This document shows, in pieces, positions 2 to 15,699 of a DNA stretch of 15,835 nucleotides. A program made the position numbers and the translations under genes. The stretch's first letter is position 1, and each line of letters begins with the position of its first letter. The stretch comes from Methanomicrobia archaeon (GTDB lineage Archaea; Methanobacteriota_B; Thermococci; Methanofastidiosales; NM3). The notes beneath the pieces are model-generated. The model searched no databases and was not told where the DNA came from. It saw only the letters and a list, made by a program, of their open reading frames with translations. Location: contig JAUVXU010000025.1 of assembly GCA_030603445.1 (NCBI GenBank), forward strand, positions 1 to 15,835, read 5' to 3'.

Positions 2-3000
2 AATGGCCTAGATGTATTTGATGCCGATTCATCTCAAAAAGTCGTGATAGAAAATGCTAAATTAGGAAAAAATATGGTAATCCAAGGCCCCCCTGGAACA
101 GGGAAAAGCCAGACTATTGCCAATATTATAATTAATATGGTGGCCGATGGAAAAACGGTACTTTTTGTCAGCCAAAAAGCAGCTGCACTCGAAGTAGTAT
201 ATAATAAACTTGAGAAAATAGATATGGGAAAATATTGTTTGAAACTACATGGCCATAATGCAAATAAAAAAGAAGTGGTCAATGAATTATACAATCATTT
301 AGAAACATCTTTTAATATTCCAACTAATATTATAAATGCTGATATTAAAACTTATCTTTCGAGCCAATCAGCATTGAATAACTATTATTTCTCTTTATGC
401 GAGAAAAAAGAACCTTATAATAAGTCGTTATTTAATATTAATGGAAAGATAGCCAAACTTGAAAATGTTCCATTTTCCAACTGTGATTTTTCTAGTTTAC
501 TATCATATGATATAGAAGAAATTGATGATATTAGAAATGAATTAGAAAAATTAGATGGCATTTTTGATAATAGTAACGATCCATTTAATTCACCGCTTTA
601 TTTTTTAAAATATAATGATAACACCCAATTTTATAATAATTTAGAATTAATACTCCAAAAATTAACAACAAACAGAGAGATATTTAACTTCATAGACAAT
701 TTTAAACAATATTTCAAAGAAAAAATGACTTTTAAAGACATATGTTTTGTGTTAGATAAATATAAAACACTAGAAAATATCATTGATCATGTATTTTTAT
801 CCCTTGATTGCGATTTATCATTATGTTTTAATGTGTTAAATGAAATAATGCTAAATTACTCGGAGATTGAAAATACCAAGAATAAAGCTAAAGGTCTAGT
901 GAATGTATCTTTCTTTGATGCATTAACAACTCATGAAGAAAATGTATTGAAAAAGTCTGGAATCCTAAGTAGATTCTTTAATAAAGAATACAATAATTCG
1001 ATGAGATCTCTACGCCAATATGAACTTTATTCATTGACAAAAAATGAATGGACATATTTATTCGATTTAAAAAATCAATATTACGAAAAAAAAGTAAAAT
1101 TAGAATCTCTCATCAATCAAAACAAAGAAATTTTATTTTCTTTAGGACTTCATAACTTGGATATGAATACTTCTAATTATATTAATAACATAATATCTTT
1201 TCAAAAATTATTACGCGAAACAAAGCAGTTTGGAGAATCTCAAAGAGCTTTTATTCTGTCTCTTTCAGAATATCAATATTTTGATTCAATTAACAAATAC
1301 TGTGAATCACTCAATAATATAAATTCATTCTTCAAATGTGTTATTATTAAACAAGATAATGATTATGAATTAATAAGAGGTATCCTGGATGCATCCTATG
1401 GGTGCATGGAGAAAAAAGCTGAATACATATACTTTCTTCGTATGATAAATACATTAAACGAAAATATTGTTCAAATAATAACTGAATATTATAAATCAAA
1501 AATTGAATGTTCATTAGTGGATTATTTTGATAAAACCTATTATTTATTACTTAAAAATTCTCGTCAATATACTCCTGAATTAATTCTTCCACGAAATGAA
1601 GCAAAAATTTTGAGAGAAAAGGGAACAAAAAATCAAGATAATTCAAGAATACGCCATATTAAAAAATTAGAAAGTTATAAACCAAATCTAATCTATGATT
1701 CTTATGGAAATCTAAGCATTAAATTATTGAAAAGGGAAAAGGAAAAAAAGAGGAGGTTAAAACCATTAAGAGTGCTTTTTTATGATATAGAAGATTTGAT
1801 ATTTAAAATCAAACCATGTTTCATGATGAGCCCTTTATCAGTATGCCAATATATTAATCCAGATTTCATAAAATTTGATGTCGTTATATTTGATGAAGCA
1901 TCACAGATAATGATAGAAGATGCAGTAAATTGTCTTATCAGAGCAAGACAGTTGATAGTGGCGGGCGATACAAAACAATTGCCCCCTACTACATTTTTCC
2001 TACGTGATGATGAAGAGGATTATGAAGATATTGAATTGTTACCAAGTTTTTTAAGTGAGTGTTCTACACGATTCCCTGAAAAGTTACTGAAATGGCATTA
2101 CAGAAGTAAAGACGAATCACTCATTACATTTTCAAATCTTAAATATTATAACAATAGATTATTTACATTTCCATCAAATAGTAGCAATCCATTGTTAGGT
2201 ATTGATTTTCACTATGTTGAAAATGGAATTTATGATAGGGGTAAATCACGTACTAACCGTATTGAAGCTGAAGAAATTGTAACAATATTCAATGATATTA
2301 GAAAAAAATATCCAGATAAATCAATTGGCATTATTGCATTCAGCATTAGCCAAGAACGTGCCATCTATCAAGCATTTGAAAACAGAGGTGTATATTTTGA
2401 TGATATAAAAGATTCTCCAAATAACGAACCATTCTTCATAAAGAATTTAGAAACGGTGCAAGGTGATGAAAGAGATATTATTATATTGAGTATTTGTTAT
2501 GGCAGAGATGGATTAGGAAAGTTAAATTATAATTTCGGACCTATTAATAAAGATGGAGGCCATAAAAGATTAAATGTTGCTATAACTCGATCTAGATATA
2601 AGACTATTGTAGTATCCTCTATTAGATATCATGATTTAGATGATTCCAAGCTTCATTCTGAAGGAACAAATAACTTGAAACAATATCTATCTTTTGCTGA
2701 AAACAAAAACCTTGATCTCCCTACTGTAAGAAATGATTACATGTTTGATTCAGATTTTGAAGAGGCAGTATATGATAGATTAAAAGAATCGGGCCTTAAT
2801 TTACAAACTCAGGTGGGATGTTCAGAGTATAAGATAGATATGGCAGTAGTTCACCCAAATAAACCCGGAAAATATGTGCTTGGTATCGAGTGTGATGGAG
2901 CACAATATCATTCATCTAAATTCGCTCGTGACCGTGATAGGATTCGTCAAAAAATTCTAGAAAGCCAAGGATGGCACATTTATCGCATTTGGTCTGATGA

Positions 3001-3721
3001 TTGGTTACATAATTCATCTAACGTTGTTAGAGTAATAACGGAATTGATTACAGATTTAGTAGAAAAAGACACAGAAAAACATCCTGCAAAATACGAATAC
3101 GAAAAACTCGATGTTAAAGAAAATAATTTAAAAAAAATTAACCTACAAGATATGTATCCTAAATATGAAAGTGTGATTCTAGAGATAAATGAAATAGGTC
3201 TAAGTGAAGCGAATAATTACAGATTATCTTTCAACTCTAAGGCATGCAAATACTTATACCAAAATGCAAACAAAGTAATGAACACAGAGGCGCCCATTAC
3301 AAAAGAACTTTTGATGAAGCGTGTTTTTAGTAGCATAGGAGTAAAAAAAATTACAAATAAATCAAAGAAAATATTTGATAATTTTTTTAAATCATATAAA
3401 TTTGAAAAAAATTTAATATTAAGTAATGGGACTGTATTTATGACTGATGATAAAGTACTTGTAGATGTTCGTATTTCTAATGAAATCTCAAGGCCTTTTG
3501 AATATATACCTATTCAAGAACTAGGAAGAGCAATTGTTGACATATTATTGAATTCTTCTCTTGATAAAAAAGGCATAATTCATGATGTTCCACGCTTAAT
3601 ATACGGATATGGGCGAGTTGGTAATAATATAAGAAAAAAAATGGAAGATACTATAAAATATTTGGAAAATAAGAAGTTAATTGTTGAAAAAAATGGAAAA
3701 TATTTTCCATTTGATAATTAA
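2..3721 (+). CDS. SF1 helicase-nuclease, Hhe/DUF4011-DUF3320-like, 5' end missing
   Basis: Large superfamily 1 (UPF1/DNA2-type) helicase fused to a Vsr-like nuclease. The frame is open from base 2, so the N-terminus (probably DUF4011) lies outside the window and the GTG at 44 is not the true start. Numbering from base 2: Walker A GPPGTGKS at 29-36; a roughly 590-residue AT-rich, helical insertion; Walker B DEAS at 631-634; motif III GDTKQLPPT at about 655; WHYRS soon after; QGDER motif V; motif VI NVAITRSR at about 858. A PD-(D/E)XK domain of the MTES_1575/Vsr type follows, with D946, E963-C-D965, an ARDRDR stretch and GWHIYRIWSDDW. The last 80 residues match the DUF3320 pattern (PIQELGRAIVDIL, then GYGRVGNNIRKKME). 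This order matches the single-gene DUF4011-helicase-Vsr (Hhe) anti-phage family. The nuclease presumably cuts invading nucleic acid; the target is unknown. No partner gene is visible downstream. Domain calls are strong; the defence role is inferred from the family. Confidence 0.88.
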   Translation, partial: NGLDVFDADSSQKVVIENAKLGKNMVIQGPPGTGKSQTIANIIINMVADGKTVLFVSQKAAALEVVYNKLEKIDMGKYCLKLHGHNANKKEVVNELYNHLETSFNIPTNIINADIKTYLSSQSALNNYYFSLCEKKEPYNKSLFNINGKIAKLENVPFSNCDFSSLLSYDIEEIDDIRNELEKLDGIFDNSNDPFNSPLYFLKYNDNTQFYNNLELILQKLTTNREIFNFIDNFKQYFKEKMTFKDICFVLDKYKTLENIIDHVFLSLDCDLSLCFNVLNEIMLNYSEIENTKNKAKGLVNVSFFDALTTHEENVLKKSGILSRFFNKEYNNSMRSLRQYELYSLTKNEWTYLFDLKNQYYEKKVKLESLINQNKEILFSLGLHNLDMNTSNYINNIISFQKLLRETKQFGESQRAFILSLSEYQYFDSINKYCESLNNINSFFKCVIIKQDNDYELIRGILDASYGCMEKKAEYIYFLRMINTLNENIVQIITEYYKSKIECSLVDYFDKTYYLLLKNSRQYTPELILPRNEAKILREKGTKNQDNSRIRHIKKLESYKPNLIYDSYGNLSIKLLKREKEKKRRLKPLRVLFYDIEDLIFKIKPCFMMSPLSVCQYINPDFIKFDVVIFDEASQIMIEDAVNCLIRARQLIVAGDTKQLPPTTFFLRDDEEDYEDIELLPSFLSECSTRFPEKLLKWHYRSKDESLITFSNLKYYNNRLFTFPSNSSNPLLGIDFHYVENGIYDRGKSRTNRIEAEEIVTIFNDIRKKYPDKSIGIIAFSISQERAIYQAFENRGVYFDDIKDSPNNEPFFIKNLETVQGDERDIIILSICYGRDGLGKLNYNFGPINKDGGHKRLNVAITRSRYKTIVVSSIRYHDLDDSKLHSEGTNNLKQYLSFAENKNLDLPTVRNDYMFDSDFEEAVYDRLKESGLNLQTQVGCSEYKIDMAVVHPNKPGKYVLGIECDGAQYHSSKFARDRDRIRQKILESQGWHIYRIWSDDWLHNSSNVVRVITELITDLVEKDTEKHPAKYEYEKLDVKENNLKKINLQDMYPKYESVILEINEIGLSEANNYRLSFNSKACKYLYQNANKVMNTEAPITKELLMKRVFSSIGVKKITNKSKKIFDNFFKSYKFEKNLILSNGTVFMTDDKVLVDVRISNEISRPFEYIPIQELGRAIVDILLNSSLDKKGIIHDVPRLIYGYGRVGNNIRKKMEDTIKYLENKKLIVEKNGKYFPFDN

Positions 3722-4109: not shown

Positions 4110-5264
4110 ATGAGCAAAGAAGAAAAATATGTCCAAAAGATAAAAAACGATGTCGATGAGCGCCTTTACGAGCTTTTAATGCTTCACTTGAGGGACATCG
4201 ATGAGAAGATCAGGATACATTCTGAAGCAAATATTAAACTAAAGAAGGAATTTATCTCCATTTTGGAAGGGGCAATATCCAATTTAAGAAATAACATTAC
4301 TTCCTTTAGTAGATTAAGCTACTATCGATATATCATTATCATCTGCAACACCATCTTGAGATTCGACACGACCAGGCAGGATCTAAAAGAGCTGAAAAAA
4401 GAGCTTATCGAAGACTTCACCCATTCAGATTCGGACGAACACGGTTTCATACCCCTTAACTACCAGATGAACGAGGTGAGGATAACATATGACGTTGCCT
4501 ACCTGACATACCTTGTCCAAAAATACATTGACAAGGGTTACTGGACGTATGCCCTTTACTGTCTCAAGGCAGTTGACATGCTGGAACCGGACCTTGATGA
4601 GATCGGTGGGTGGTACAAGACGATATATAAGAATCTTAAAGGACTTTCCCCACGGCAAGCAGATCATGAGACGCCGGTGGGAAAGGCGTTGGTGATAGAC
4701 TCAAACATTGCAATATCCATGATAAGCGACAACATCGGAAGGTATAGATTTCAGGAGAGGCAGGATGTAAATTGGGACATCCTATCATCAAACACGCTTT
4801 TCATTACGCCTTCGGTGCGAGACGAGGTAAGAAAGCATGTTGAGTTCATGGATGTCAAGATCAGGAAGTTTTGCAGGAAGAACCCCGCATTTGACAAAGA
4901 TGCGATATGCTCAGAATTTCATAAGAGGTATGAAGATCTTGTTCAAATGTATTCTATCGACGTGGATTTGGATGATAACAACATTGAGCCGATAAGGGAA
5001 TTCTATTTGCGGTATGTTCCAACACTAGCAGATATACTAGACGAGAAGAACAGCCACTATTATGTTTCACATAAGTTGAGAAAGCTTGCCCAGAGGGAGG
5101 ATCTTCTGCCTGAAAGGGGCGACATGGGGCTGCTTTCTGAAGTTATCTCTTTGAGAGAGAATGGAGTGGACGTGGACGGGATAATATCACTTGACAAGGA
5201 TTTTACTGTTTTTTCGGGAGATATTTATGACAAATTTGGGATTAAGGTGTATATGCCGTATTAA
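4110..5264 (+). CDS. PIN-domain ribonuclease with long helical N-terminal region
   Basis: 384-residue protein. Residues 1 to about 185 are mainly helical and charged, with no recognised domain. Residues 190-384 form a PIN (VapC/FEN-like) nuclease domain, seen from its ordered acidic residues: D197 in ALVIDSNIAIS, E239 in SVRDEVRKH, D338 in RGDMGLLSEV, and D362/D364 in IISLDKDF. PIN domains cut RNA with two metal ions held by these acids. At 384 residues it is far longer than a VapC toxin (about 130) and no antitoxin-like ORF stands next to it, so a simple toxin-antitoxin pair is unlikely. The ATG at 4110 has only a weak upstream match to a ribosome binding site. The gene is clearly richer in G+C than the helicase before it and is convergent with the mcrC-like gene, 37 bases away. 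Its place in a defence island suggests an RNA-cutting defence effector, but that is inference. Confidence 0.8.
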   Translation: MSKEEKYVQKIKNDVDERLYELLMLHLRDIDEKIRIHSEANIKLKKEFISILEGAISNLRNNITSFSRLSYYRYIIIICNTILRFDTTRQDLKELKKELIEDFTHSDSDEHGFIPLNYQMNEVRITYDVAYLTYLVQKYIDKGYWTYALYCLKAVDMLEPDLDEIGGWYKTIYKNLKGLSPRQADHETPVGKALVIDSNIAISMISDNIGRYRFQERQDVNWDILSSNTLFITPSVRDEVRKHVEFMDVKIRKFCRKNPAFDKDAICSEFHKRYEDLVQMYSIDVDLDDNNIEPIREFYLRYVPTLADILDEKNSHYYVSHKLRKLAQREDLLPERGDMGLLSEVISLRENGVDVDGIISLDKDFTVFSGDIYDKFGIKVYMPY

Positions 5265-5301: not shown

Positions 5302-6516
5302 TCAATTCGAGCAGGCAGATTTTATTAAACCTTCAATATTTCCATCACCAATCTTTATAACTGATACATTTTGGCTATGTTGCCTTACAACATCTACATT
5401 GTCCAAGAACAGCCAGCCTTTTATCTTATCAGAAGAAAAAACTGCATTTGCGTCATCTTCAAAATAATTGTCACTTGACCGTATCAGTGCCATGTATTCA
5501 AGGAGTTCCTTGAGGCCTTTAGACGCATAATAGACAGATTCAGTGTATTTGACCTCACCGAGGAAGACCTGAACGGGTCGTTTTTGGCCTTTATGGTATT
5601 TCTCTAGCACAATATCAGGCCTGCCACCCCATAACACATCACCTCGCTGCAAATCAAAGAATTTTTTACTAGCTTTTTGCCATTCCTTTACAACGAGAGA
5701 TTCGCGCTTTAGGTACCCATCCTTTTCCGGTATTTTGATGTTCTCCCATTTTTCACGAAAATTGAAAACTCCTGTACTGTCATGATATATTCGATAACGA
5801 TAATACTCGTCCTCCCATTCTGCAACGATGTTGTTATTACCATCAATAATATTGAAGGTAACGGCTTTCTTATCATGGGTCATGGCCATGATTACCTTGA
5901 ATATCCAGAATAGTTCAAACAATACCTTGACTCTGCCGGGTCTTATAAATGTGTTTTTTAGTAGCTCTTGAGCTTCTGAAGGAGCCAAATCATAATTCAT
6001 GAGCTTTTTGTAGTCACTCATGAGCTTGGCAGCCTCACTGTAGAGCGTGTTACGGGATTGCAAGGTGTTTGATATCATCCGTTCTGTCAATATCACTTCA
6101 CCTTCCTCCCTGATACGCCGCAGATAGATGTTCCGTTGATAAACGCCCTTGAGCATTGCCAAAAGGTTGCCTTTAGTCCATCCCTTGAGCCAGGGGTAAT
6201 CATTTTTGATTGCACGATATACGTCATTGGAAGTAATGGAATACATGGTCTTTAAGAGTTCGTTAAGGACGATATTCTCAGGTATGGAGTACTTGCGCTC
6301 TACAAGGTCAACATAATAAGGTGATAAGGTATCATTGGATCTGCAACGTTCCTTGAAGGTCTTTTGCCAATCTATGCGCCCACGAATTTTGTCCCTTTGT
6401 TGCTCATTGTACTTGTGCGTCGTAGTCTTAATTCGACGAATTCGTTGTGGTAAAGACGACACAAAATTGGTAACATCATTTCTCAAGATGAAATGAATGC
6501 GAAGCAATTTTTCCAT
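5302..6516 (-). CDS. mcrC: McrC-like PD-(D/E)XK nuclease subunit, N-terminus cut off by a stop codon
   Basis: 404 residues from the ATG at 6516. McrC is the nuclease subunit that McrB recruits to cleave DNA containing methylcytosine. The C-terminal third shows the nuclease motif: D301 in GGRPDIVLEK, then E321-V-K323 in LGEVKYT. The central part is helical and includes KIRGRIDWQKTFKERC (about residues 42-57), typical of McrC/DUF2357-like proteins. It lies just downstream of mcrB on the same strand. The ATG at 6516 has no ribosome binding site. The same frame continues upstream as credible coding sequence back to a TGA at 6598-6600 and, beyond it, to an ATG at 6639 overlapping the mcrB end. The product visible here is therefore probably an N-terminally shortened or dead version. 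The assignment as McrC-like rests on the motif and operon partner; other McrB-linked nucleases are possible. Confidence 0.75.
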   Translation of the reverse strand: MEKLLRIHFILRNDVTNFVSSLPQRIRRIKTTTHKYNEQQRDKIRGRIDWQKTFKERCRSNDTLSPYYVDLVERKYSIPENIVLNELLKTMYSITSNDVYRAIKNDYPWLKGWTKGNLLAMLKGVYQRNIYLRRIREEGEVILTERMISNTLQSRNTLYSEAAKLMSDYKKLMNYDLAPSEAQELLKNTFIRPGRVKVLFELFWIFKVIMAMTHDKKAVTFNIIDGNNNIVAEWEDEYYRYRIYHDSTGVFNFREKWENIKIPEKDGYLKRESLVVKEWQKASKKFFDLQRGDVLWGGRPDIVLEKYHKGQKRPVQVFLGEVKYTESVYYASKGLKELLEYMALIRSSDNYFEDDANAVFSSDKIKGWLFLDNVDVVRQHSQNVSVIKIGDGNIEGLIKSACSN

Positions 6517-6639
6517 ATCATCAATATTGAGTGAAGTATCAATTTTTTTTGTAAAGGATGAGATATCACCATATTTAAGGAAAGTGAAAAGATGCTCTCA
6601 AACTTCCTTGACAAGAGCACCCTCACTTGTTTTCGTCAT
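6517..6639 (-). pseudogene. original 5' end of mcrC, interrupted by in-frame TGA
   Basis: Reading upstream from the 404-residue frame, the codons give HLFTFLKYGDISSFTKKID and similar sequence back to an in-frame TGA at 6598-6600. Before the TGA the frame continues MTKTSEGALVKEV to an ATG at 6639-6637, which overlaps the mcrB stop (6625-6623) by 17 bases, a usual translational-coupling arrangement. No GTG or TTG lies between the TGA and the ATG at 6516. The simplest reading is a nonsense change (for example CGA or GGA to TGA) in a gene whose true start is 6639, giving an intact length of about 445 residues. TGA also ends mcrB and this gene, so it acts as a stop in this genome. Confidence 0.6.
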
Positions 6640-9271
6640 GATCAAACTTCCCTATCTTAAATCCGAAAAAATCACTTGCAAGCTTCTGTAGTTCCTCATA
6701 TTCCTTACCTTTAATGAGGCCCGATGTTTTTAGTTCATTAATGAAACTAATTTGGTCCTCTTGCATTAGACCTTCGAACTGGGGAAGTACGTACATTGCC
6801 AAGGATGAGCCGTAAGAGCCTCCTGCGCTTACACATTTTGCAATGTCATTGATTATAGCGGGGCCTATCCTCCTGTATTTGTTAATAGCGGCCCACAAAC
6901 TAGCAACCTTGTTAACTGTGTCCTCATCATTAGTCTGTATATCCCATATAGAGAATAGTTCCTTAACAGCCTTTGGAATGTCTTCAGGAATTCCAACATT
7001 GATAAATGCGAATCTTCGCATGAAAGCATATGACATCTCATAGAGCGAGGCTTTATCAAACGTGTTCATTGTTGCTATTATCCTCCAATCCGGGTGGATA
7101 AAAAATCGATGTGGCAATACTTTATCATCATCTTTTGGATCGCCGATGACTTCGATGCGTTCTCCTTTAATGAATTGTGATATTTGTATTCTATCTCCTG
7201 TTAGGGCAGAAAATAAAGCGCCGAACGCCTTATCGATGTCCGATCTGTTGATCTCATCAAGGATTAGCCATTTGTTCGCTGGAAGGCCATCTTTGTTCTG
7301 GAAGCATGATAAAAAGATGCCTTTATCAAATTCAAGACGGTTCTCCTTGTTTGGCATGTAACCCCCAATGGTATCAAATGTCGACCAGTCCGAGCATGCT
7401 GTGACCATCAAATAGTTGTCTTCATGCCTCATGGATTCGCATATACCCTTTGCAAGCTTGGACTTTCCCGTCCCTGGGGGTCCAATCAGGATGATATGTT
7501 TGCCTGAGTTTATAGCTGTTATTATTTGCCCTATGAGATGTTTCTCATCCTCAAAGTACAAATTTGGAATTATTTCATTATTAGGATCAAATTTTAAAGA
7601 TTCATGACAATTGCCATAAAGCATGGTAATACTTGGTTTTGATGGTGAATGTACAATAATATTTTCAAAAGCTTTCACAAGTTCAGGGCGCATGATCCAT
7701 GGAAAGTATCTTGTTTTCTTATCATCCCCCATAAATGGCACATTCCACCAGTTTATGCCTTCGCCTTTCTTGTAAGGGGGTGGCGTTATCCCCATTTTTT
7801 GTACGATGCGTTTGCTAAAACGGCTAACTTCCAGATTGATAACACCATGATGTGGCTTATTGAGTTTTTTTGCTATCTCAGAAGCTGTAATCTCGTGATC
7901 TTCGTTTTCATAAACCAATCTAAGTATTTCAAAATCCTCATCTTTAGTGATATTGGCATCGGTAATTATTTCTTCCCAATCCTCAATGGAAAGGCCAATT
8001 CCATTATTTTTACAAGAAGTGCGAATAATATCTACATATATATTTTCTATCTCTTCAATTTTTGGCAATAATTCCACTATGAAATGCATCATTGCATCAA
8101 TGACGTATAAATCGTATTTTTCATCAAGTTTTTCCAGCTCTCTTTCTACTTCTAATATTTGTAGATAATACTCCCCATCAGATGTTCCATGCTTCCTTTT
8201 AGGCAACAAACCTAATAGTTCTAATCCGCGCTTGGTTTTGTTATTCCAAATGAGATATTTCTCTGGAAATACTTCATGCAGGTATATTGAACGTGATCCC
8301 TTTCCAAAATTTTTGAAGTTGTTACCTTTGTTAAACCACGTAATAACATCAAATTCATTTGAAAATACTTCCATCACGTGATCTCTGAAATGATCATAAT
8401 TATTTTCAATGAATTCCTTGAATTTAGGCGCTATGCGAGAACCACCTGATTGAATCTTACCTCCATTCTTGACAAAATTATAGAAAAAATCTATAAACTC
8501 TTCACGATTCAGAAGCCTTATTTTTTGTTCTTCAATCTCATTGTATATCTTTAGCGGATTTTGTGAATGTTCGGAATTAATGTACCATTTTTCGTATCCA
8601 ATTTTAAATAAGGAGCTTGCAATTTGATATTTCAAGCTTTTATATTGGGTTATCGTATAAATAAAATCTTGACCATCCATGACGTTGGGATTAATGATAG
8701 TATCAGTATCTTTTAGGAAATCAGATATATTATTACATACTTCAATGTATTTTTCATATTTTTTTCCTAACCCCTCTTTTTTATCCCATTTTTTTCCTAA
8801 TATTTCCAAAAAATCGTTAAATACATTATTCTTGTAAACAGGATACTTTTGCATATCAAAAGAAGCAAGCACATAAGCAAAGAGAGATATTCCAAAATTA
8901 CATTTATATTCTTCTTTTAAGATATTTCGGGCATTCTCAATTCTATCAGCAAGCGGTATTTTTTCGTCAAGAAGAATATTTAAAAATGTTAAAACATCAT
9001 TAGGGTTTTTTTCAGCTATCTTTAGAAGATTATCTAGTTCAGTCCAATGTACTAAAGGTCCTTGATTGGGATTATATTTTTGTAATATTTTTATTTTTTC
9101 AACTATATTTTCCGCATTTATCTCTTTTAAAGACATTTTTTTATTAAGCTCAGAAAGAACATCCCATTTATAATTTTCATCCCATTCAAGAGTATTTCGG
9201 AATTTTTTATATTCATTGGCAGCTATCTTGAAATAATTATCTTTAACGAAAAAATCATTAATTTTATTCAT
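6623..9271 (-). CDS. mcrB: McrB-like AAA+ GTPase of a type IV restriction system
   Basis: 882 residues from ATG 9271; a TTG at 9280 would add three. McrB binds modified DNA with its N-terminus and assembles into an AAA+ ring that drives McrC. Motifs, numbered from ATG 9271: Walker A GPPGTGKS at 597-604, Walker B LDEINR at 671-676 followed by SDIDKAFG, and the McrB signature MNT at 735-737 with the conserved MRRF arginines shortly after. The 590-residue N-terminal region is much larger than in E. coli McrB. It has two similar segments (about 135-159 and 331-355), a probable winged helix at about 445-490 and a WWNVPF...FPWIMRPEL stretch at about 508-530. No SRA, EVE or PUA domain was recognised. 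The N-terminal half is strikingly AT-rich compared with the AAA+ part, suggesting an exchanged recognition module. The stop overlaps the presumed original mcrC start. Confidence 0.87.
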   Translation of the reverse strand: MNKINDFFVKDNYFKIAANEYKKFRNTLEWDENYKWDVLSELNKKMSLKEINAENIVEKIKILQKYNPNQGPLVHWTELDNLLKIAEKNPNDVLTFLNILLDEKIPLADRIENARNILKEEYKCNFGISLFAYVLASFDMQKYPVYKNNVFNDFLEILGKKWDKKEGLGKKYEKYIEVCNNISDFLKDTDTIINPNVMDGQDFIYTITQYKSLKYQIASSLFKIGYEKWYINSEHSQNPLKIYNEIEEQKIRLLNREEFIDFFYNFVKNGGKIQSGGSRIAPKFKEFIENNYDHFRDHVMEVFSNEFDVITWFNKGNNFKNFGKGSRSIYLHEVFPEKYLIWNNKTKRGLELLGLLPKRKHGTSDGEYYLQILEVERELEKLDEKYDLYVIDAMMHFIVELLPKIEEIENIYVDIIRTSCKNNGIGLSIEDWEEIITDANITKDEDFEILRLVYENEDHEITASEIAKKLNKPHHGVINLEVSRFSKRIVQKMGITPPPYKKGEGINWWNVPFMGDDKKTRYFPWIMRPELVKAFENIIVHSPSKPSITMLYGNCHESLKFDPNNEIIPNLYFEDEKHLIGQIITAINSGKHIILIGPPGTGKSKLAKGICESMRHEDNYLMVTACSDWSTFDTIGGYMPNKENRLEFDKGIFLSCFQNKDGLPANKWLILDEINRSDIDKAFGALFSALTGDRIQISQFIKGERIEVIGDPKDDDKVLPHRFFIHPDWRIIATMNTFDKASLYEMSYAFMRRFAFINVGIPEDIPKAVKELFSIWDIQTNDEDTVNKVASLWAAINKYRRIGPAIINDIAKCVSAGGSYGSSLAMYVLPQFEGLMQEDQISFINELKTSGLIKGKEYEELQKLASDFFGFKIGKFDHDENK

Positions 9272-9289
9272 ATTTATCAAATATTCTTA

Positions 9290-9663: not shown

Positions 9664-9752
9664 ACATAAAAGGAAATTTTATAATTTTTACTTCTTATGC
9701 ATCATTTAATTTTGATGTAAAAAATGGTTCACACAACTTTTATTTATGATGA
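9664..9752. repeat. 89-bp direct repeat A, copy 1
   Basis: Begins ACATAAAAGGAAATTTTATA and ends TTTATTTATGATGA. It is repeated at 9848-9936 with three substitutions in 89 bases. Each copy can fold: TTTTTA...CATCA on the left pairs with TGATGTAAAAA on the right around an AT loop, with a bulge in the left arm. One of the three differences falls in the loop. No ORF of note is present. It could be a duplicated small RNA, a MITE-like remnant or a protein-binding element. Confidence 0.75.
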
Positions 9753-9841
9753 GAAAGACATATTGTAAAGATATGAGTTAGAGGGTAACAACTAACAGAA
9801 AGACATATTGTAAAGATATGAGTTAGAGGGTAACAACTAAC
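9752..9841. repeat. two tandem copies of a 45-bp repeat B
   Basis: The 45-bp unit starting AGAAAGACATATTGTAAAGA and ending GGTAACAACTAAC occurs exactly at 9752-9796 and 9797-9841. A third start (AGAAAGACAT) at 9842-9851 runs into repeat A copy 2. Each unit has two short inverted repeats, CATAT/ATATG and GTTAG/CTAAC. The array sits between the two A copies. With no spacers it is not a CRISPR. Iteron-like protein binding or repeated RNA hairpins are possible. Confidence 0.8.
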
Positions 9842-9847
9842 AGAAAG

Positions 9848-9936
9848 ACATAAAAGGAAATTTTATAATTTTTACTTCTTATGCATCATTTATTTTTGAT
9901 GTAAAAAATGCTTCACACAACCTTTATTTATGATGA
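9848..9936. repeat. 89-bp direct repeat A, copy 2
   Basis: Second copy of the element at 9664-9752, offset by 184 bases, with differences in the AT loop, at GG/GC before TTCACAC, and in AACTTTT/AACCTTT. Its first bases (ACAT) are shared with the truncated third B unit, so the junction looks like a recombination at short homology. Confidence 0.75.
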
Positions 9937-10522: not shown

Positions 10523-12730
10523 CTAATAATCTTGGGACAACTTTATTTCATACATTCGGACTCGTCTGCCGTGAGAAAACGTGGAAGACTTAATAGTGTT
10601 GTGTTTCGATTCACCCATCACAAGAAGTCCTCTCTCTTTCAAGCCGTTTAACGTCCTTCTCGGTGAGAAACCCCACTCAATCATAAGCTTTTTGAATTGA
10701 TTAGGCAATATCCTTACCGATGATTCGCTCACGAACTCGCCGAACTGCTCTATGCTTCCTGATGTCGTGCCAATAAATCTATTCTCGTTTCCCCATACCC
10801 ACGATGCGAACATATCTATTGCCCTCTTCGTGTCGTCACGCTTGTCGTTGTCCTCAAGTTCCTGTAATAAATATTTCGCCATCACTTTCGCTTCGTTCAG
10901 CGTGAGGTCGTTCTTGTATCCCCAAAGCCAACGTCTCGACAGGACATCTCCTGTTGCCATACAAGCAAGCAGGTCAACGTGGCTTCGTGACTTGTTCTGT
11001 GCGAAAGGCAATAGGTATCCTATGATGTCGTTGTATATCGCTATTATCTCATCCCTGTCGGCACTTATGAGCTTCTGGATATAATCGTATCCTGCTATGC
11101 CGAAGAATCGTGTGGAGTCCTTATGAACGGCGTGTGCATCCTCGTCTGTCATAAAGGGCATCACCAACTCCACGATTCTTGTCTTTACCCCACCTAATTT
11201 ATCATCGTCTGTCAGTGTGTGTTTCCCTATGGTAAGTGCGATTGTTCTCCAATACGACATCGGTGCAAGTGACGTCGTTCCATCGTTAGTTCCCTTGGCC
11301 TTGCTTATGCCACCTGAAGCGACATAAACTATCATCTCGATAAACTTGTTCTTGGTGCTTCCTGCCTGCTTCTCATCGATGCCGAGTGGCAAGTCATTAT
11401 GCATGGCGACACTTCGTTCTATGCCCACCCTTGTGGCGTTGAAGTTAATCATCATCTGGTCTGGGTCGCCCCATACCGACAATGCACCTTTTAGTGTAGC
11501 CGTCTTCCCCCTGCCTGAACTTCCCCCTAAATGCACTGCCATTGATTTTCCGTTGATTATCCGAAGCAACGGGACTGCGAATGAGGAGGCCATCATCGCC
11601 CTTGTGGGAAATGTCTGGTATAAAGGTGCTATCGCCTGCATCCATTCGGCAAGGCTTCCTTGAACCCTGCACCCGTCGAGATGGTTGAACATATCAAGCT
11701 CGATAGCTGGTGCGCCGTAAGGTATGAACTCGGTCTTTGAGCACCACCCGTATCTTGTGGTGGAACGGACAGGACGGAATATATGCTTGTTGGCATCTTC
11801 GAACCCTGAAAGGTAATTGACCAATGCCTTCGACCTTTCGCTTGTAACAGGAAGACCATTGTCTGCGAGATTTATTATCTTCTGCTTGTTGAATATTATA
11901 CTTCTTCTTGCTTTCAGACTTCGCCACGCGTCGTCTGCGTGCCACGTTATGCCCACCTTTTCCTCGTGTGTGTGTATGTCCCTATATCTTGCCTTGATGC
12001 CTATCGGTACTGAGCAAGCTATCTCACTCTCAAATCTCTTACTTGAATTGGGATTACCCTTGATGGTAAAAACACCTTTATCTGAAAAGTCCCAACCCTT
12101 TGGTAATATAAGTCCTTTAATTGGAAATTCTGGATAAATATCATCTAAGTTATGGCTCGTGGCACAGTCTGGAGATTGAAATATAAATTTTTCATTTTTA
12201 GATATTCCATTTATATTATTGTTATTTGATGAGGTGGTGATAGAATCTATACCACAAAGTTCTTTGATATTGTTATATGATATTAATTCCTTTAGCTTCA
12301 CATATTTTTTGTTATTTTCATGAAAATCATTAAATTCAAGGGTAAGTATAGGTTCATTTTCGTCCCAATTATAAATATTGAATAAATGACCATTAGTAAG
12401 AATAGTAAAACGTATGGGATTTTCTCCCTTGAATCCACAATTTAATACATGGGCATATCCTGCTACTTGATAGGTATAGTTATCAATATTAGTAAGAGGA
12501 TTTTTGGCTTCGATTACAATTAATGGTTTATCCCCATAAAAACATACATAATCGGGTCTGTAAGCCTCTTTAATCGAACCCTTGGGGATATCAATATTAG
12601 CAAGGGAGTTATTAATTCTAATATTATTGTCTTCATATCCTAAAGCTCCAAGTAGCCTAATAATAAAAAATTGTTCAACTTCACTTTCACTTTTAAGTGC
12701 GTCCTTCTCACAGAACAAGTTCTTTTCCAT
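10523..12730 (-). CDS. HsdR-N-like PD-(D/E)XK nuclease fused to DUF927 P-loop NTPase
   Basis: 735 residues. The N-terminus (about 1-165) matches the type I restriction R-subunit N-terminal nuclease: YRPD60, then VIE74-A-K76, then YQ88VAGYA, so the D-E-K-Q catalytic set is present. An Asn-rich linker at about 166-180 follows. Residues from about 205 to the end match DUF927, an NTPase/helicase-like family common in phages, integrative elements and plasmids. They include Walker A GSSGRGKT (403-410), a following VWGDP, an FNATRVGIERSVAMHND stretch and acidic pair D452-E453 in LGIDEKQAG. DUF927 proteins often sit with primases; a nuclease fused here is unusual. The first 200 codons are far more AT-rich than the rest, pointing to a recent domain join. 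A good ribosome binding site supports the ATG at 12730. Role: possibly a mobile-element replication/processing protein turned defence nuclease; this is inference. Confidence 0.85.
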   Translation of the reverse strand: MEKNLFCEKDALKSESEVEQFFIIRLLGALGYEDNNIRINNSLANIDIPKGSIKEAYRPDYVCFYGDKPLIVIEAKNPLTNIDNYTYQVAGYAHVLNCGFKGENPIRFTILTNGHLFNIYNWDENEPILTLEFNDFHENNKKYVKLKELISYNNIKELCGIDSITTSSNNNNINGISKNEKFIFQSPDCATSHNLDDIYPEFPIKGLILPKGWDFSDKGVFTIKGNPNSSKRFESEIACSVPIGIKARYRDIHTHEEKVGITWHADDAWRSLKARRSIIFNKQKIINLADNGLPVTSERSKALVNYLSGFEDANKHIFRPVRSTTRYGWCSKTEFIPYGAPAIELDMFNHLDGCRVQGSLAEWMQAIAPLYQTFPTRAMMASSFAVPLLRIINGKSMAVHLGGSSGRGKTATLKGALSVWGDPDQMMINFNATRVGIERSVAMHNDLPLGIDEKQAGSTKNKFIEMIVYVASGGISKAKGTNDGTTSLAPMSYWRTIALTIGKHTLTDDDKLGGVKTRIVELVMPFMTDEDAHAVHKDSTRFFGIAGYDYIQKLISADRDEIIAIYNDIIGYLLPFAQNKSRSHVDLLACMATGDVLSRRWLWGYKNDLTLNEAKVMAKYLLQELEDNDKRDDTKRAIDMFASWVWGNENRFIGTTSGSIEQFGEFVSESSVRILPNQFKKLMIEWGFSPRRTLNGLKERGLLVMGESKHNTIKSSTFSHGRRVRMYEIKLSQDY

Positions 12731-12738
12731 AAGATATA

Positions 12739-12743
12739 CTCCT
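12739..12743 (-). promoter_or_regulatory. Shine-Dalgarno AGGAG for the DUF927 fusion
   Basis: On the minus strand AAAAGGAGT precedes the ATG at 12730 by 8 bases. It fixes the start. A CTTTTATG-like AT-rich segment about 30 bases before the ATG may be the TATA box, though in this AT-rich stretch that is uncertain. Confidence 0.55.
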
Positions 12744-12986
12744 TTTATTGCATAAAAGATAATATGGGTGATATCTTGTACATTTTTTTATTAAACAATT
12801 TACTTACTCATTGTATATTCTTATTTTTGTATGTGATTATAAATTATTGTGATACTCGTTTAATCATATCCAAGTAGTATTTGTTATAAACATATATAAT
12901 GAGAATTATGATTAACTCCTATTTTTAGTTATCGTTCTATTGTGCTTATATTTTAAGTATTCTTTTGGAAATACTTACTGCTATTT

Positions 12987-13241: not shown

Positions 13242-13694
13242 ATGGATTACCTTCGTGACGGGCGATCACCAATTCCGGATTCTGATTCAACCTCAAAAGT
13301 GATGAGCGCTAATAAAGGAAAGGACACAGGCCCAGAATTAGAACTCAGAAGAAATCTTTGGAAAAATGGCCTTAGGGGATATCGTATTCACCCCAAAAAT
13401 ATACCGGGGCGCCCAGATATAGCTTATACTAGATACAAATTAGCTATATTTATGCATGGCTGTTTTTGGCATAGGTGCCCTAAATGTAATCTCCATCTCC
13501 CCAAATCCCATACTCAATTTTGGGAAGACAAATTTCAAAAAAATGTCGAACGGGATATTAAGAAAAAGATAGAATTGGAATCATTGGGATGGAAAGTATT
13601 GGTGATTTGGGAATGTGAATTAATCAAAGATATAGGTAATTGCATTGAAAAGATTAAAATAGCTTTAGTGAAAAGAAAAACAAATGAACAATGA
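13242..13694 (+). CDS. vsr: very short patch repair (Vsr) endonuclease
   Basis: 150 residues, the usual Vsr length. Vsr nicks DNA 5' of the T in T:G mismatches left by deamination of 5-methylcytosine at the partner methyltransferase site, starting repair back to C:G. Seen in sequence: MSANKGKDTGPELELRR (about 21-37), the family's opening motif; GRPD59 with the catalytic aspartate; a GCFWH77 and Cys-rich segment (72-82); FWEDKFQKNVERD; and GWKVLVIWECEL, whose Cys at about 125 fits the zinc site. The gene overlaps the methyltransferase start by 11 bases, so the two are translated together. Small plain Vsr proteins can also be the nuclease part of restriction or defence systems, but pairing with a C5 methyltransferase makes the repair role most likely. 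Confidence 0.92.
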   Translation: MDYLRDGRSPIPDSDSTSKVMSANKGKDTGPELELRRNLWKNGLRGYRIHPKNIPGRPDIAYTRYKLAIFMHGCFWHRCPKCNLHLPKSHTQFWEDKFQKNVERDIKKKIELESLGWKVLVIWECELIKDIGNCIEKIKIALVKRKTNEQ

Positions 13695-15699
13695 TAATAA
13701 AGGGGTCACAGTAATAGACCTTTTCTGTGGAGCTGGTGGATTCAGCGAAGGTTTCCACATGGCTGGTTTCGATGTCGTATATGGCATTGATAATTGGAAA
13801 CCCGCATGTGAAACACATTCATTGAACAATCTAGGCGAAACTGGGAACATAGACCTTCTTTCTGTTGATATAGATGATGTTTTGGATATTAAATCCAAAC
13901 TTAACAAGAAATATGGGGAAATTGACATAGTAATTGGCAGTCCCCCATGTACCGAGTTCTCTTATGCTAAGAAAGGGGGAAGAGGCAATATCGAGAAAGG
14001 AATGCTTTTGATAAGAAAACATCTATTATTCGTTTCATTATTCAAACCAAAATATTGGCTAATGGAGAATGTCCCAAGACTGAAATCTGCTATTGAGGAC
14101 GAAAGTATCAAACATAATGGCCCAGGATGGTTTATTCCTTATAAAAAGATTGGGATACCTCCTGGTAGATTTGAAGAATTAGGCATCAATAGTAAATTGC
14201 TTCATATTCCAAAAGGTGGCATATTCACTGCTAGTGACTATGGTGCATGTCAAAACAGGAAACGATTCATTGCAGGTAATTTCCCTATAGATAATATGAA
14301 AAACCATGTTGTTCCAAAAGATTTTGATGTTAGTCTAGGCAAAATAATAAATTCCTTAGAAAAATTAAGAACACAGGATAATGGTCATGTCACAGACCCA
14401 AATTACCCCCATCATCAAGTAGATATTAGACACCTTAGAGATTATGATTATGACACATCCTTACATCCTATGTATTGGGAAGAGATGAGATATGCAAAGA
14501 GGAGGGCCATCCAATATGGCAAGATGAAATTCCCGGAGGACATGGGCTCCCCATCTAGAACGATAATGGCGACGGCAAATTCATCCTCGAGGGAAGCATT
14601 GGTTTTCGATACAGGTAAAATGAAGTTTTATCAAGGCAGAAAAAGACCAATATTTCGTCAACCTACTGTAAGAGAGGTATCTTGTATCCAAGGATTTCCT
14701 TTGGACTTTCAATTGTTGGCTAGTAAAATCAATGACAGGTACAAACTTGTGGGTAATGCCGTTCCATGCCGATTATCCTATTCCTTGGCCCTATCCATAT
14801 TAGATGAAATTGATTCTAATAAAAATAATATAACTGATGATGAGTACCTTAATCGTGTGAATACGGCCCTATCTAGAAGAAAAAAGAATCGTTATCTCCC
14901 AATTATTACAAATCCTTCAAAGATCGTAGCTGAGGCCAATGATGGAGATAATATTCATAATACCTTTAAGGCAAGATCGAACAAAAGGATAAAAAGAAAA
15001 TTATTATCCTCTAAGTTACCTGGAGATTCCCACATCGTTGTCTTTGATAATAGCATCATCGATAATGATAAACTAAAGGGCAGCACTGAATGGAAGGTAT
15101 GTATCCACAGGGGCGTAGGAAAGGGTTATGCTAAGGTATTCATGGACAAGATCAGCATTGGGATTATTCTAAAAGGTCTCGACAGACGTTTTACCTCTGA
15201 TGAGAAATCCATAATCAAAGAGCTTTTCCAACGTATCGATGAGGGGATACCAAAATTGAAGGGCGGCTGGATAGAGTTCAAGGACTTTTCTTCCTCGATT
15301 CCATATAAGGGATACATAAGTAAGGATAGACTTGAACTGCCCGATATAGAAACCTTTCAAAGGATGTTCACAAAGGATATACGGAAGATTGGGAATTATG
15401 TTGGCCCCATTGATATCTTCGACGGTCTTGATGCATTGATGTTAGAAGTGCTATGTGGACATAAGAATATGCTCGACTCTACACTATGCTTGAACTCATT
15501 GACCGATGAGGACATCTACATAGATTTCGAGGCATCTGGCGCATCTCGTATCGCGGGTAAAATCAAAATACCATTGATAACGATCTTTGCAGCATTCGCA
15601 TCTGTTTACGTATTGAACAGGATGTACGAAAAAGCGGGATCAGGATATAATGTCTATTCACGTTCTATATCCGAGGCAGTTGCCATGATAAAAGAATAG
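13684..15699 (+). CDS. DNA (cytosine-5) methyltransferase with long C-terminal extension
   Basis: 671 residues. It transfers a methyl group from S-adenosylmethionine to carbon 5 of cytosine at a specific site, protecting host DNA. Motifs in order: I, IDLFCGAGG (11-19); IV, GSPPC89T with the catalytic cysteine (Thr where Gln is usual); VI, E128NV; VIII, Q190NRKR; target recognition region about 200-318; IX, REVSCIQGFP (330-339); X, VGNAVP (356-361). A normal enzyme would end near 380. Here about 290 further residues follow (EWKVCIHRGVGKGYAKVF, GLDRRFTSDE, PLITIFAAFASVYVLNRMYE) that I cannot assign. The ATG at 13684 lies inside the vsr end and has no own ribosome binding site, so translation is coupled. 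No complete restriction partner is in the window; the convergent gene cut by the right edge is a candidate. The extension may be a regulatory or second recognition domain. Confidence 0.9.
   Translation: MNNDNKGVTVIDLFCGAGGFSEGFHMAGFDVVYGIDNWKPACETHSLNNLGETGNIDLLSVDIDDVLDIKSKLNKKYGEIDIVIGSPPCTEFSYAKKGGRGNIEKGMLLIRKHLLFVSLFKPKYWLMENVPRLKSAIEDESIKHNGPGWFIPYKKIGIPPGRFEELGINSKLLHIPKGGIFTASDYGACQNRKRFIAGNFPIDNMKNHVVPKDFDVSLGKIINSLEKLRTQDNGHVTDPNYPHHQVDIRHLRDYDYDTSLHPMYWEEMRYAKRRAIQYGKMKFPEDMGSPSRTIMATANSSSREALVFDTGKMKFYQGRKRPIFRQPTVREVSCIQGFPLDFQLLASKINDRYKLVGNAVPCRLSYSLALSILDEIDSNKNNITDDEYLNRVNTALSRRKKNRYLPIITNPSKIVAEANDGDNIHNTFKARSNKRIKRKLLSSKLPGDSHIVVFDNSIIDNDKLKGSTEWKVCIHRGVGKGYAKVFMDKISIGIILKGLDRRFTSDEKSIIKELFQRIDEGIPKLKGGWIEFKDFSSSIPYKGYISKDRLELPDIETFQRMFTKDIRKIGNYVGPIDIFDGLDALMLEVLCGHKNMLDSTLCLNSLTDEDIYIDFEASGASRIAGKIKIPLITIFAAFASVYVLNRMYEKAGSGYNVYSRSISEAVAMIKE

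Follow-up and report, generated by a model that had tools for sequence, protein, structure and literature searches.

A restriction-type nuclease domain in the position of the primase on a DUF927 helicase encoded in an archaeal defense island

As a rule, restriction nucleases either rely on SF2 translocases as motors or are targeted by methylase or specificity domains. The gene described here departs from both arrangements, since it encodes an HsdR-type nuclease domain followed by a DUF927 domain, and it raises the question of whether such a protein defends its host or replicates a mobile genetic element (MGE). A sequence-only reading had taken the protein for a type I restriction nuclease carrying a DUF927 NTPase instead of the usual SNF2-type translocase, and had suggested a new single-gene defense system. 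The stretch of DNA analyzed (the window) is an entire contig of 15,835 bases (C37) from a 1.62-Mb genome in 48 contigs. This genome carries MCR alpha, which identifies the host as a methanogenic archaeon.

Results

Domain architecture of the fusion protein

The fusion gene occupies a single, open, and uninterrupted frame of 735 codons on the minus strand (12730 to 10523) and encodes the sole DUF927 protein of the host genome. Its ATG is preceded, at a distance of 8 nt, by a Shine-Dalgarno sequence, AAAGGAG (12739–12745, minus strand), that can be read directly from the DNA. Pfam searches of the 735-residue product gave four matches, all exceeding the gathering cut-offs: HSDR_N (aa 56–121, E = 6e-9), HSDR_N_2 (aa 15–126, 2e-6), DUF927 (aa 216–485, 3e-47), and HTH_56 (aa 632–733, 2e-14). 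Profile searching thus confirmed the co-occurrence of HSDR_N and DUF927 in one chain. The two halves are separated by a low-complexity, AT-rich linker (SSNNNNIN...; 12161–12250, minus strand) that is of low confidence in the structural model, and helicase homology begins directly past this linker. A type I R subunit was considered and rejected, because the protein has no SF2 motor and the window, as had been claimed, contains neither HsdM nor HsdS.

The nuclease half

The N-terminal domain (aa 1–160; 12251–12730, minus strand) was assigned as an HsdR/type IIG-like PD-(D/E)XK nuclease on the basis of Pfam, alignment, modeling, and Foldseek. Its motif, P59-D60, E74-A-K76, and Q88-x3-Y92, contains the full D-E-K-Q set that the sequence-only reading had proposed, with D60 encoded at 12551–12553, E74 at 12509–12511, K76 at 12503–12505, and Q88 at 12467–12469 (all minus strand). 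In a four-row alignment with REase-MTase relatives, P59-D60, K76, Q88, and Y92 are invariant, and position 74 is occupied by E in two rows and by D in two.

The N-domain is poorly folded in the full-length model, as the underlying alignment has no rows for this region; conclusions on the nuclease are, therefore, drawn from a separate AlphaFold model of the N-domain, made with four sequences, in which pLDDT is ~90 over aa 20–160. When this model was used as a Foldseek query, the first match was the HsdR fragment 3h1t (1.4e-4), followed by DrdV, BpuSI, BsaXI, and the HsdR of EcoR124I. Taken together, the confidence of the model and these matches support a nuclease fold for the domain, so that the possibility of an N-terminal region of some other fold did not materialize.

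The nearest relatives of the nuclease domain are not HsdR subunits but proteins of ~880 residues in which HSDR_N is joined to an N6 methyltransferase (L156, L158, and L159; 34–39% identity), one of which (L156) additionally matches a type I specificity model. Similar proteins are encoded on plasmids of Priestia (38% identity) and Gordonia (37%). The start NxFC...E[AS]xVEQFF is common to the fusion's nuclease domain and relatives of the L156/L158/L159 type, which indicates that the N terminus of this domain is a natural one. The host itself has a second HSDR_N protein, an HSDR_N–N6 methyltransferase encoded on another of its contigs (L014, contig C40, 1616–4335), the C-terminal part of which is apparently separated by a frame change.

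The helicase half

The region from aa ~195 to 600 is an MCM-like AAA+ helicase, the core of which corresponds to the DUF927 domain (11276–12085, minus strand; Pfam, PHROGs, alignment, and model). It is followed by HTH_56, a Cch-type C-terminal winged helix that is the DNA-binding domain in relatives (10532–10837, minus strand; Pfam and structure match). In PHROGs, aa 207–730 match phrog_8841, “DNA primase/helicase,” with an E-value of 8e-103, and phage primase-helicases of this group (THSA-485A and FP_Epona) show 34–36% identity to the helicase half including the winged helix. The full-length model is mostly confident over aa 195–735, and its best matches in the PDB are SaPIBov1 Rep (8tch, 7e-23) and SCCmec Cch (5dgk, 2e-20); the SaPI replication helicase 8tch is also the closest solved structure by sequence (3e-19). 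The second half of the fusion is a complete MGE replicative helicase, comprising core and Cch winged helix, and more than a bare NTPase domain.

Alignment showed that the Walker A motif GSSGRGKT (11501–11524, minus strand), the Walker B motif LPLGIDE (11372–11392, minus strand), and the conserved Arg518 (11177–11179, minus strand) are retained. Across 21 relatives, 73 helicase columns reach a conservation of 95% or more; of these, 60 are kept in the fusion and 13 are altered, compared with 0–10% altered in any single relative. One change replaces the family's TGE motif after the core, present as TGE or NGE/SGE in more distant sequences, by IGK (11222–11230, minus strand). In a maximum-likelihood tree, the branch of the fusion helicase is long (2.89) and is placed with bacterial phage/MGE sequences, separate from the archaeal DUF927 proteins found. 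The long branch and the altered columns are compatible either with prolonged independent evolution toward a new role or with relaxed constraint, and, judged from the alignment and tree, the motor may itself be altered.

Survey of DUF927 and HSDR_N relatives

Pfam analysis of the N termini of 102 DUF927-helicase relatives identified a CHC2 zinc finger in 81, and PriCT_1, Prim-Pol, AEP-TOTE, or Toprim in the remaining classified ones; HSDR_N was found in none of the 102. Some other relatives have the primase encoded by the gene directly upstream of the DUF927 helicase, and 28 more DUF927 proteins from two bacterial phyla gave the same primase picture. In this two-phyla set, the HSDR_N proteins brought in by the N-domain were joined to an N6-MTase or to AAA_22/AAA_16, never to DUF927. 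Conversely, a phmmer search with the fusion's N-domain against the full set of 138 helicase relatives (from genomes, IMG/VR, phages, and plasmids), from which the 102 N termini were taken, gave no match at E-values up to 10. The architecture is, therefore, better put as a nuclease in the place of a primase than as DUF927 instead of an SNF2 translocase: the DUF927 domain is present and an SF2 motor is not, as first proposed, and the framing in terms of a replaced translocase fits less well.

In each of two alignments of relatives, a single member has an AEP-TOTE primase domain of the conflict-system type ahead of DUF927, a hint of a further conflict-related role for this helicase.

Whole-protein searches of ~950 genomes (151 relatives, 398 of Bacillota type, and 398 of Pseudomonadota type) gave no match spanning both halves, using local alignment that could miss a strongly diverged N-domain. 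The phage collection gave no match when searched with the N-domain alone, and no second HSDR_N–DUF927 copy was found in the phage and plasmid collections, where homologs of the same architecture had been considered a possible sign of a replication role. Borreliella plasmids were matched when plasmids were searched with the whole protein, but these matches look like HSDR_N-only ones and were rejected as fusions. Close-relative scans of genome and viral contigs with the single fusion protein returned nothing. DUF927 was found in four of 396 relatives (mostly archaea), the fusion's genome counted, and in none of 114 further genomes from the phylum of the host. A literature search on DUF927 with HsdR or nuclease yielded no title or abstract describing such a fusion. 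Hence, the HSDR_N–DUF927 fusion is a singleton in the collections searched, and the anticipated family of like proteins enriched in defense islands did not emerge, as the survey found no second example.

Base composition of the fusion gene

The nuclease half has a GC content of 0.30 (0.27–0.33 over the domain), and the helicase half one of 0.47 (0.42–0.53 over most of its length), with host contigs at 0.37–0.40. The step-up coincides with the domain border, and the two halves are, therefore, probably of different origin. That the join is in frame, falls within the low-complexity linker between the domains, and leaves both predicted active sites intact argues for a natural fusion.

Genomic neighborhood

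The contig is a defense island. It begins with a ProA/Hhe/PDC-S37-like helicase with an MTES_1575 nuclease domain (44–3721, plus strand), cut by the contig end, and a putative PIN-domain protein (4110–5264, plus strand) for which the motif was recognized by eye and family searches gave no match. On the minus strand, an McrB-like AAA+ motor (6623–9280), assigned by family and homology matches, is followed by an McrC-like nuclease (5302–6516), assigned from its position after McrB, its motif (GRPDIVL..GEVKY), and its haloarchaeal-plasmid relatives. The two genes make up an archaeal McrBC-like pair (window 5302–9280). This McrC-like partner was missed by Pfam, PADLOC, and NCBIfam, and relatives with 31–41% identity occur on many haloarchaeal plasmids. 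On the other side of the fusion gene lie a Vsr endonuclease (13242–13694, plus strand) and a C5-cytosine DNA methyltransferase with a long C-terminal extension (13684–15699, plus strand), both identified by family matches; the methylase gene adjoins the fusion gene and is divergently transcribed. Further genes of the island are also GC mosaics, and in the McrB-like gene the 5′ half is AT-rich and the 3′ half is not.

The 15.8-kb contig carries no gene for replication, a primase, SSB, integration, a recombinase, or a virion protein; RNA families and tRNAs were likewise not found in the window. Directly downstream of the fusion gene, the contig contains no origin-like iteron array. The only repeats seen downstream are a 45-nt tandem repeat, at least 670 bp away, and an 89-nt repeat; at 9664–9936, in the 1.2-kb gap between the McrB-like and fusion genes, two 89-nt copies (97% identical) flank two perfect 45-nt tandem copies. 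When the fusion was compared with curated defense models, the best PADLOC match had an E-value of 0.015, and no NCBIfam model scored above its cut-off.

Discussion

Interpretation and proposed mechanism

We tentatively favor, at close to even probability, the interpretation that the fusion is a natural chimera, in which a type I/IIG-like nuclease domain has taken over the position of the primase in a phage/MGE primase-helicase (phrog_8841, Cch/SaPI-Rep type), and which has been retained in an archaeal defense island, probably as a stand-alone anti-MGE nuclease. Mechanistically, the C-terminal winged helix and the DUF927 ring would engage foreign DNA that is double-stranded or being replicated, the AAA+ motor would travel along or remodel this DNA, and the tethered PD-(D/E)XK domain would cut it, a motor–nuclease coupling that would resemble that of HsdR, except that an MCM-like ring would supply the movement. 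Loading would proceed as with Cch/Rep proteins; Cch2 binds the origin through its C-terminal domain, and its helicase works in the 3′–5′ direction (PMC7581432). A DUF927-associated primase-polymerase (Ppol) of Thermus is reported to act in defense (PMC7693054). Anti-MGE action is favored over replication because of the defense neighborhood, the restriction-type nuclease, the lack of a primase, and the Thermus Ppol report (PMC7693054). A defense role for the fusion is plausible, and the support lent by the neighborhood is circumstantial. Thus, the earlier suggestion of a new single-gene defense system keeps the intact nuclease and the defense-island setting in its favor, and has against it that there is one instance only.

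A more specific version, which we consider rather unlikely, is that a captured replication helicase of an invader serves as the aiming part of a defense nuclease. The winged helix and ring, taken from a phage/MGE initiator, would home in on origins or replication forks in related invaders, or assemble together with the invaders' helicases, leaving the cutting to the HsdR-type domain.

Alternative explanations

The favored chimera has to be weighed against its single instance, the long helicase branch, the 13 altered columns of 73, and the lack of a real PADLOC match. One rival, which we judge unlikely yet deserving of serious attention, is a recent chimera formed by chance, or an incorrect join made in metagenome assembly, by which a fragment of a type IIG-like enzyme came to lie in frame with an MGE helicase without selection for any joint function. 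The singleton architecture, the GC step at the domain border, and the diverged helicase motifs would all be expected in this case, and the setting, one whole short contig of a binned genome in 48 contigs, adds to the concern, as do the GC mosaics among other genes of the island. Indeed, the GC contrast between the halves is consistent with a recent fusion that may not have been exposed to selection. However, the frame is open throughout, and the join falls in the linker, precisely where the domains meet; the N-domain possesses a start of its own (conserved NxFC...EAxVEQFF) and a Shine-Dalgarno sequence; catalytic motifs survive in both halves; and the long branch itself speaks for a helicase that has long been open under some constraint.

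The descent of the helicase half suggests another possibility, that the protein serves a plasmid or integrated element as its replication-initiator helicase, with the nuclease standing in for the primase and, for example, nicking or processing its origin. The close relatives of this half are all phage/MGE primase-helicases, and Cch/SaPI Rep proteins bind origins via their C-terminal domain (PMC7581432), but the contig lacks a primase, SSB, integrase, recombinase, or virion gene, and there is no iteron array just downstream, where SaPI origins lie (PMC7581432). Moreover, the fusion gene has restriction genes on its flanks. HsdR-type domains, as is generally known, make double-strand cuts, whereas replication initiators make nicks, which further reduces the appeal of this explanation, and we regard it as improbable.

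Least probable, and in our view very unlikely, is a partnership with the neighboring Vsr/C5 methyltransferase pair, in which the fusion would be an ATP-dependent restriction enzyme and host DNA would be shielded by C5 methylation. The methylase gene is adjacent and divergent, and no other cognate restriction enzyme is evident; yet C5 methylases are usually partnered by Vsr itself, the fusion/methylase pair does not recur, and the fusion has no target-recognition domain.

If the fusion is functional, it would mean that motors which replicate mobile elements can be redirected to attack these elements, and that an MCM-like replicative ring is a new class of motor in nuclease–helicase defense. DUF927, so far a replication helicase, would then gain a place in defense beside the Thermus primase-polymerase (PMC7693054).

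Comparison with known systems

By descent, the fusion belongs to the DUF927 helicases. It shares with the MGE replicative helicases of this family the Walker A/B core and the C-terminal Cch winged helix, and differs from them in having no linked primase, in the same chain or a preceding gene, in having no mobile-element setting (integrase, origin iterons) on the 15.8-kb contig, and in carrying IGK for TGE. The phrog_8841 primase-helicases THSA-485A and FP_Epona have the same helicase half and winged helix behind a CHC2/Toprim primase N terminus, in the position taken by the nuclease in the fusion. SCCmec Cch and SaPIBov1 Rep share the helicase fold, as the best PDB matches, and the HTH_56 C terminus, whereas they are element replication initiators without a nuclease domain.

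On the nuclease side, HsdR (EcoR124I, 3h1t) likewise has an N-terminal PD-(D/E)XK domain with D-E-K-Q followed by an NTP-driven DNA motor, but the motor there is an SF2 translocase and not a DUF927 MCM-like AAA+ helicase, and, unlike a type I system, the fusion has no HsdM or HsdS within its 15.8-kb contig. The single-chain, type IIG-like HSDR_N–N6 methyltransferase enzymes (L156, L158, and L159) have the nearest nuclease domains, with the same N-terminal start; in these, the nuclease is followed by an N6-MTase, with a specificity-like part in L156, which the fusion lacks. Known anti-phage systems share the location in a defense island, but no curated model matches the fusion.

Proteins joining HSDR_N to an AAA_22/AAA_16 (STAND-like) NTPase were observed in a Bacillota genome (L184) and on the Phaeobacter inhibens plasmid pP51_d (L020). 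PADLOC gave no match for L020, and the type is possibly an undescribed family of defense proteins. Like the fusion, L184 and L020 combine an HsdR-type nuclease with a non-SF2 NTPase, for which they provide a precedent, although their NTPase is of another, AAA/STAND-like class. The combination of a restriction nuclease with an NTPase is thus already known from L184 and L020, and the new element in the fusion is the DUF927 partner.
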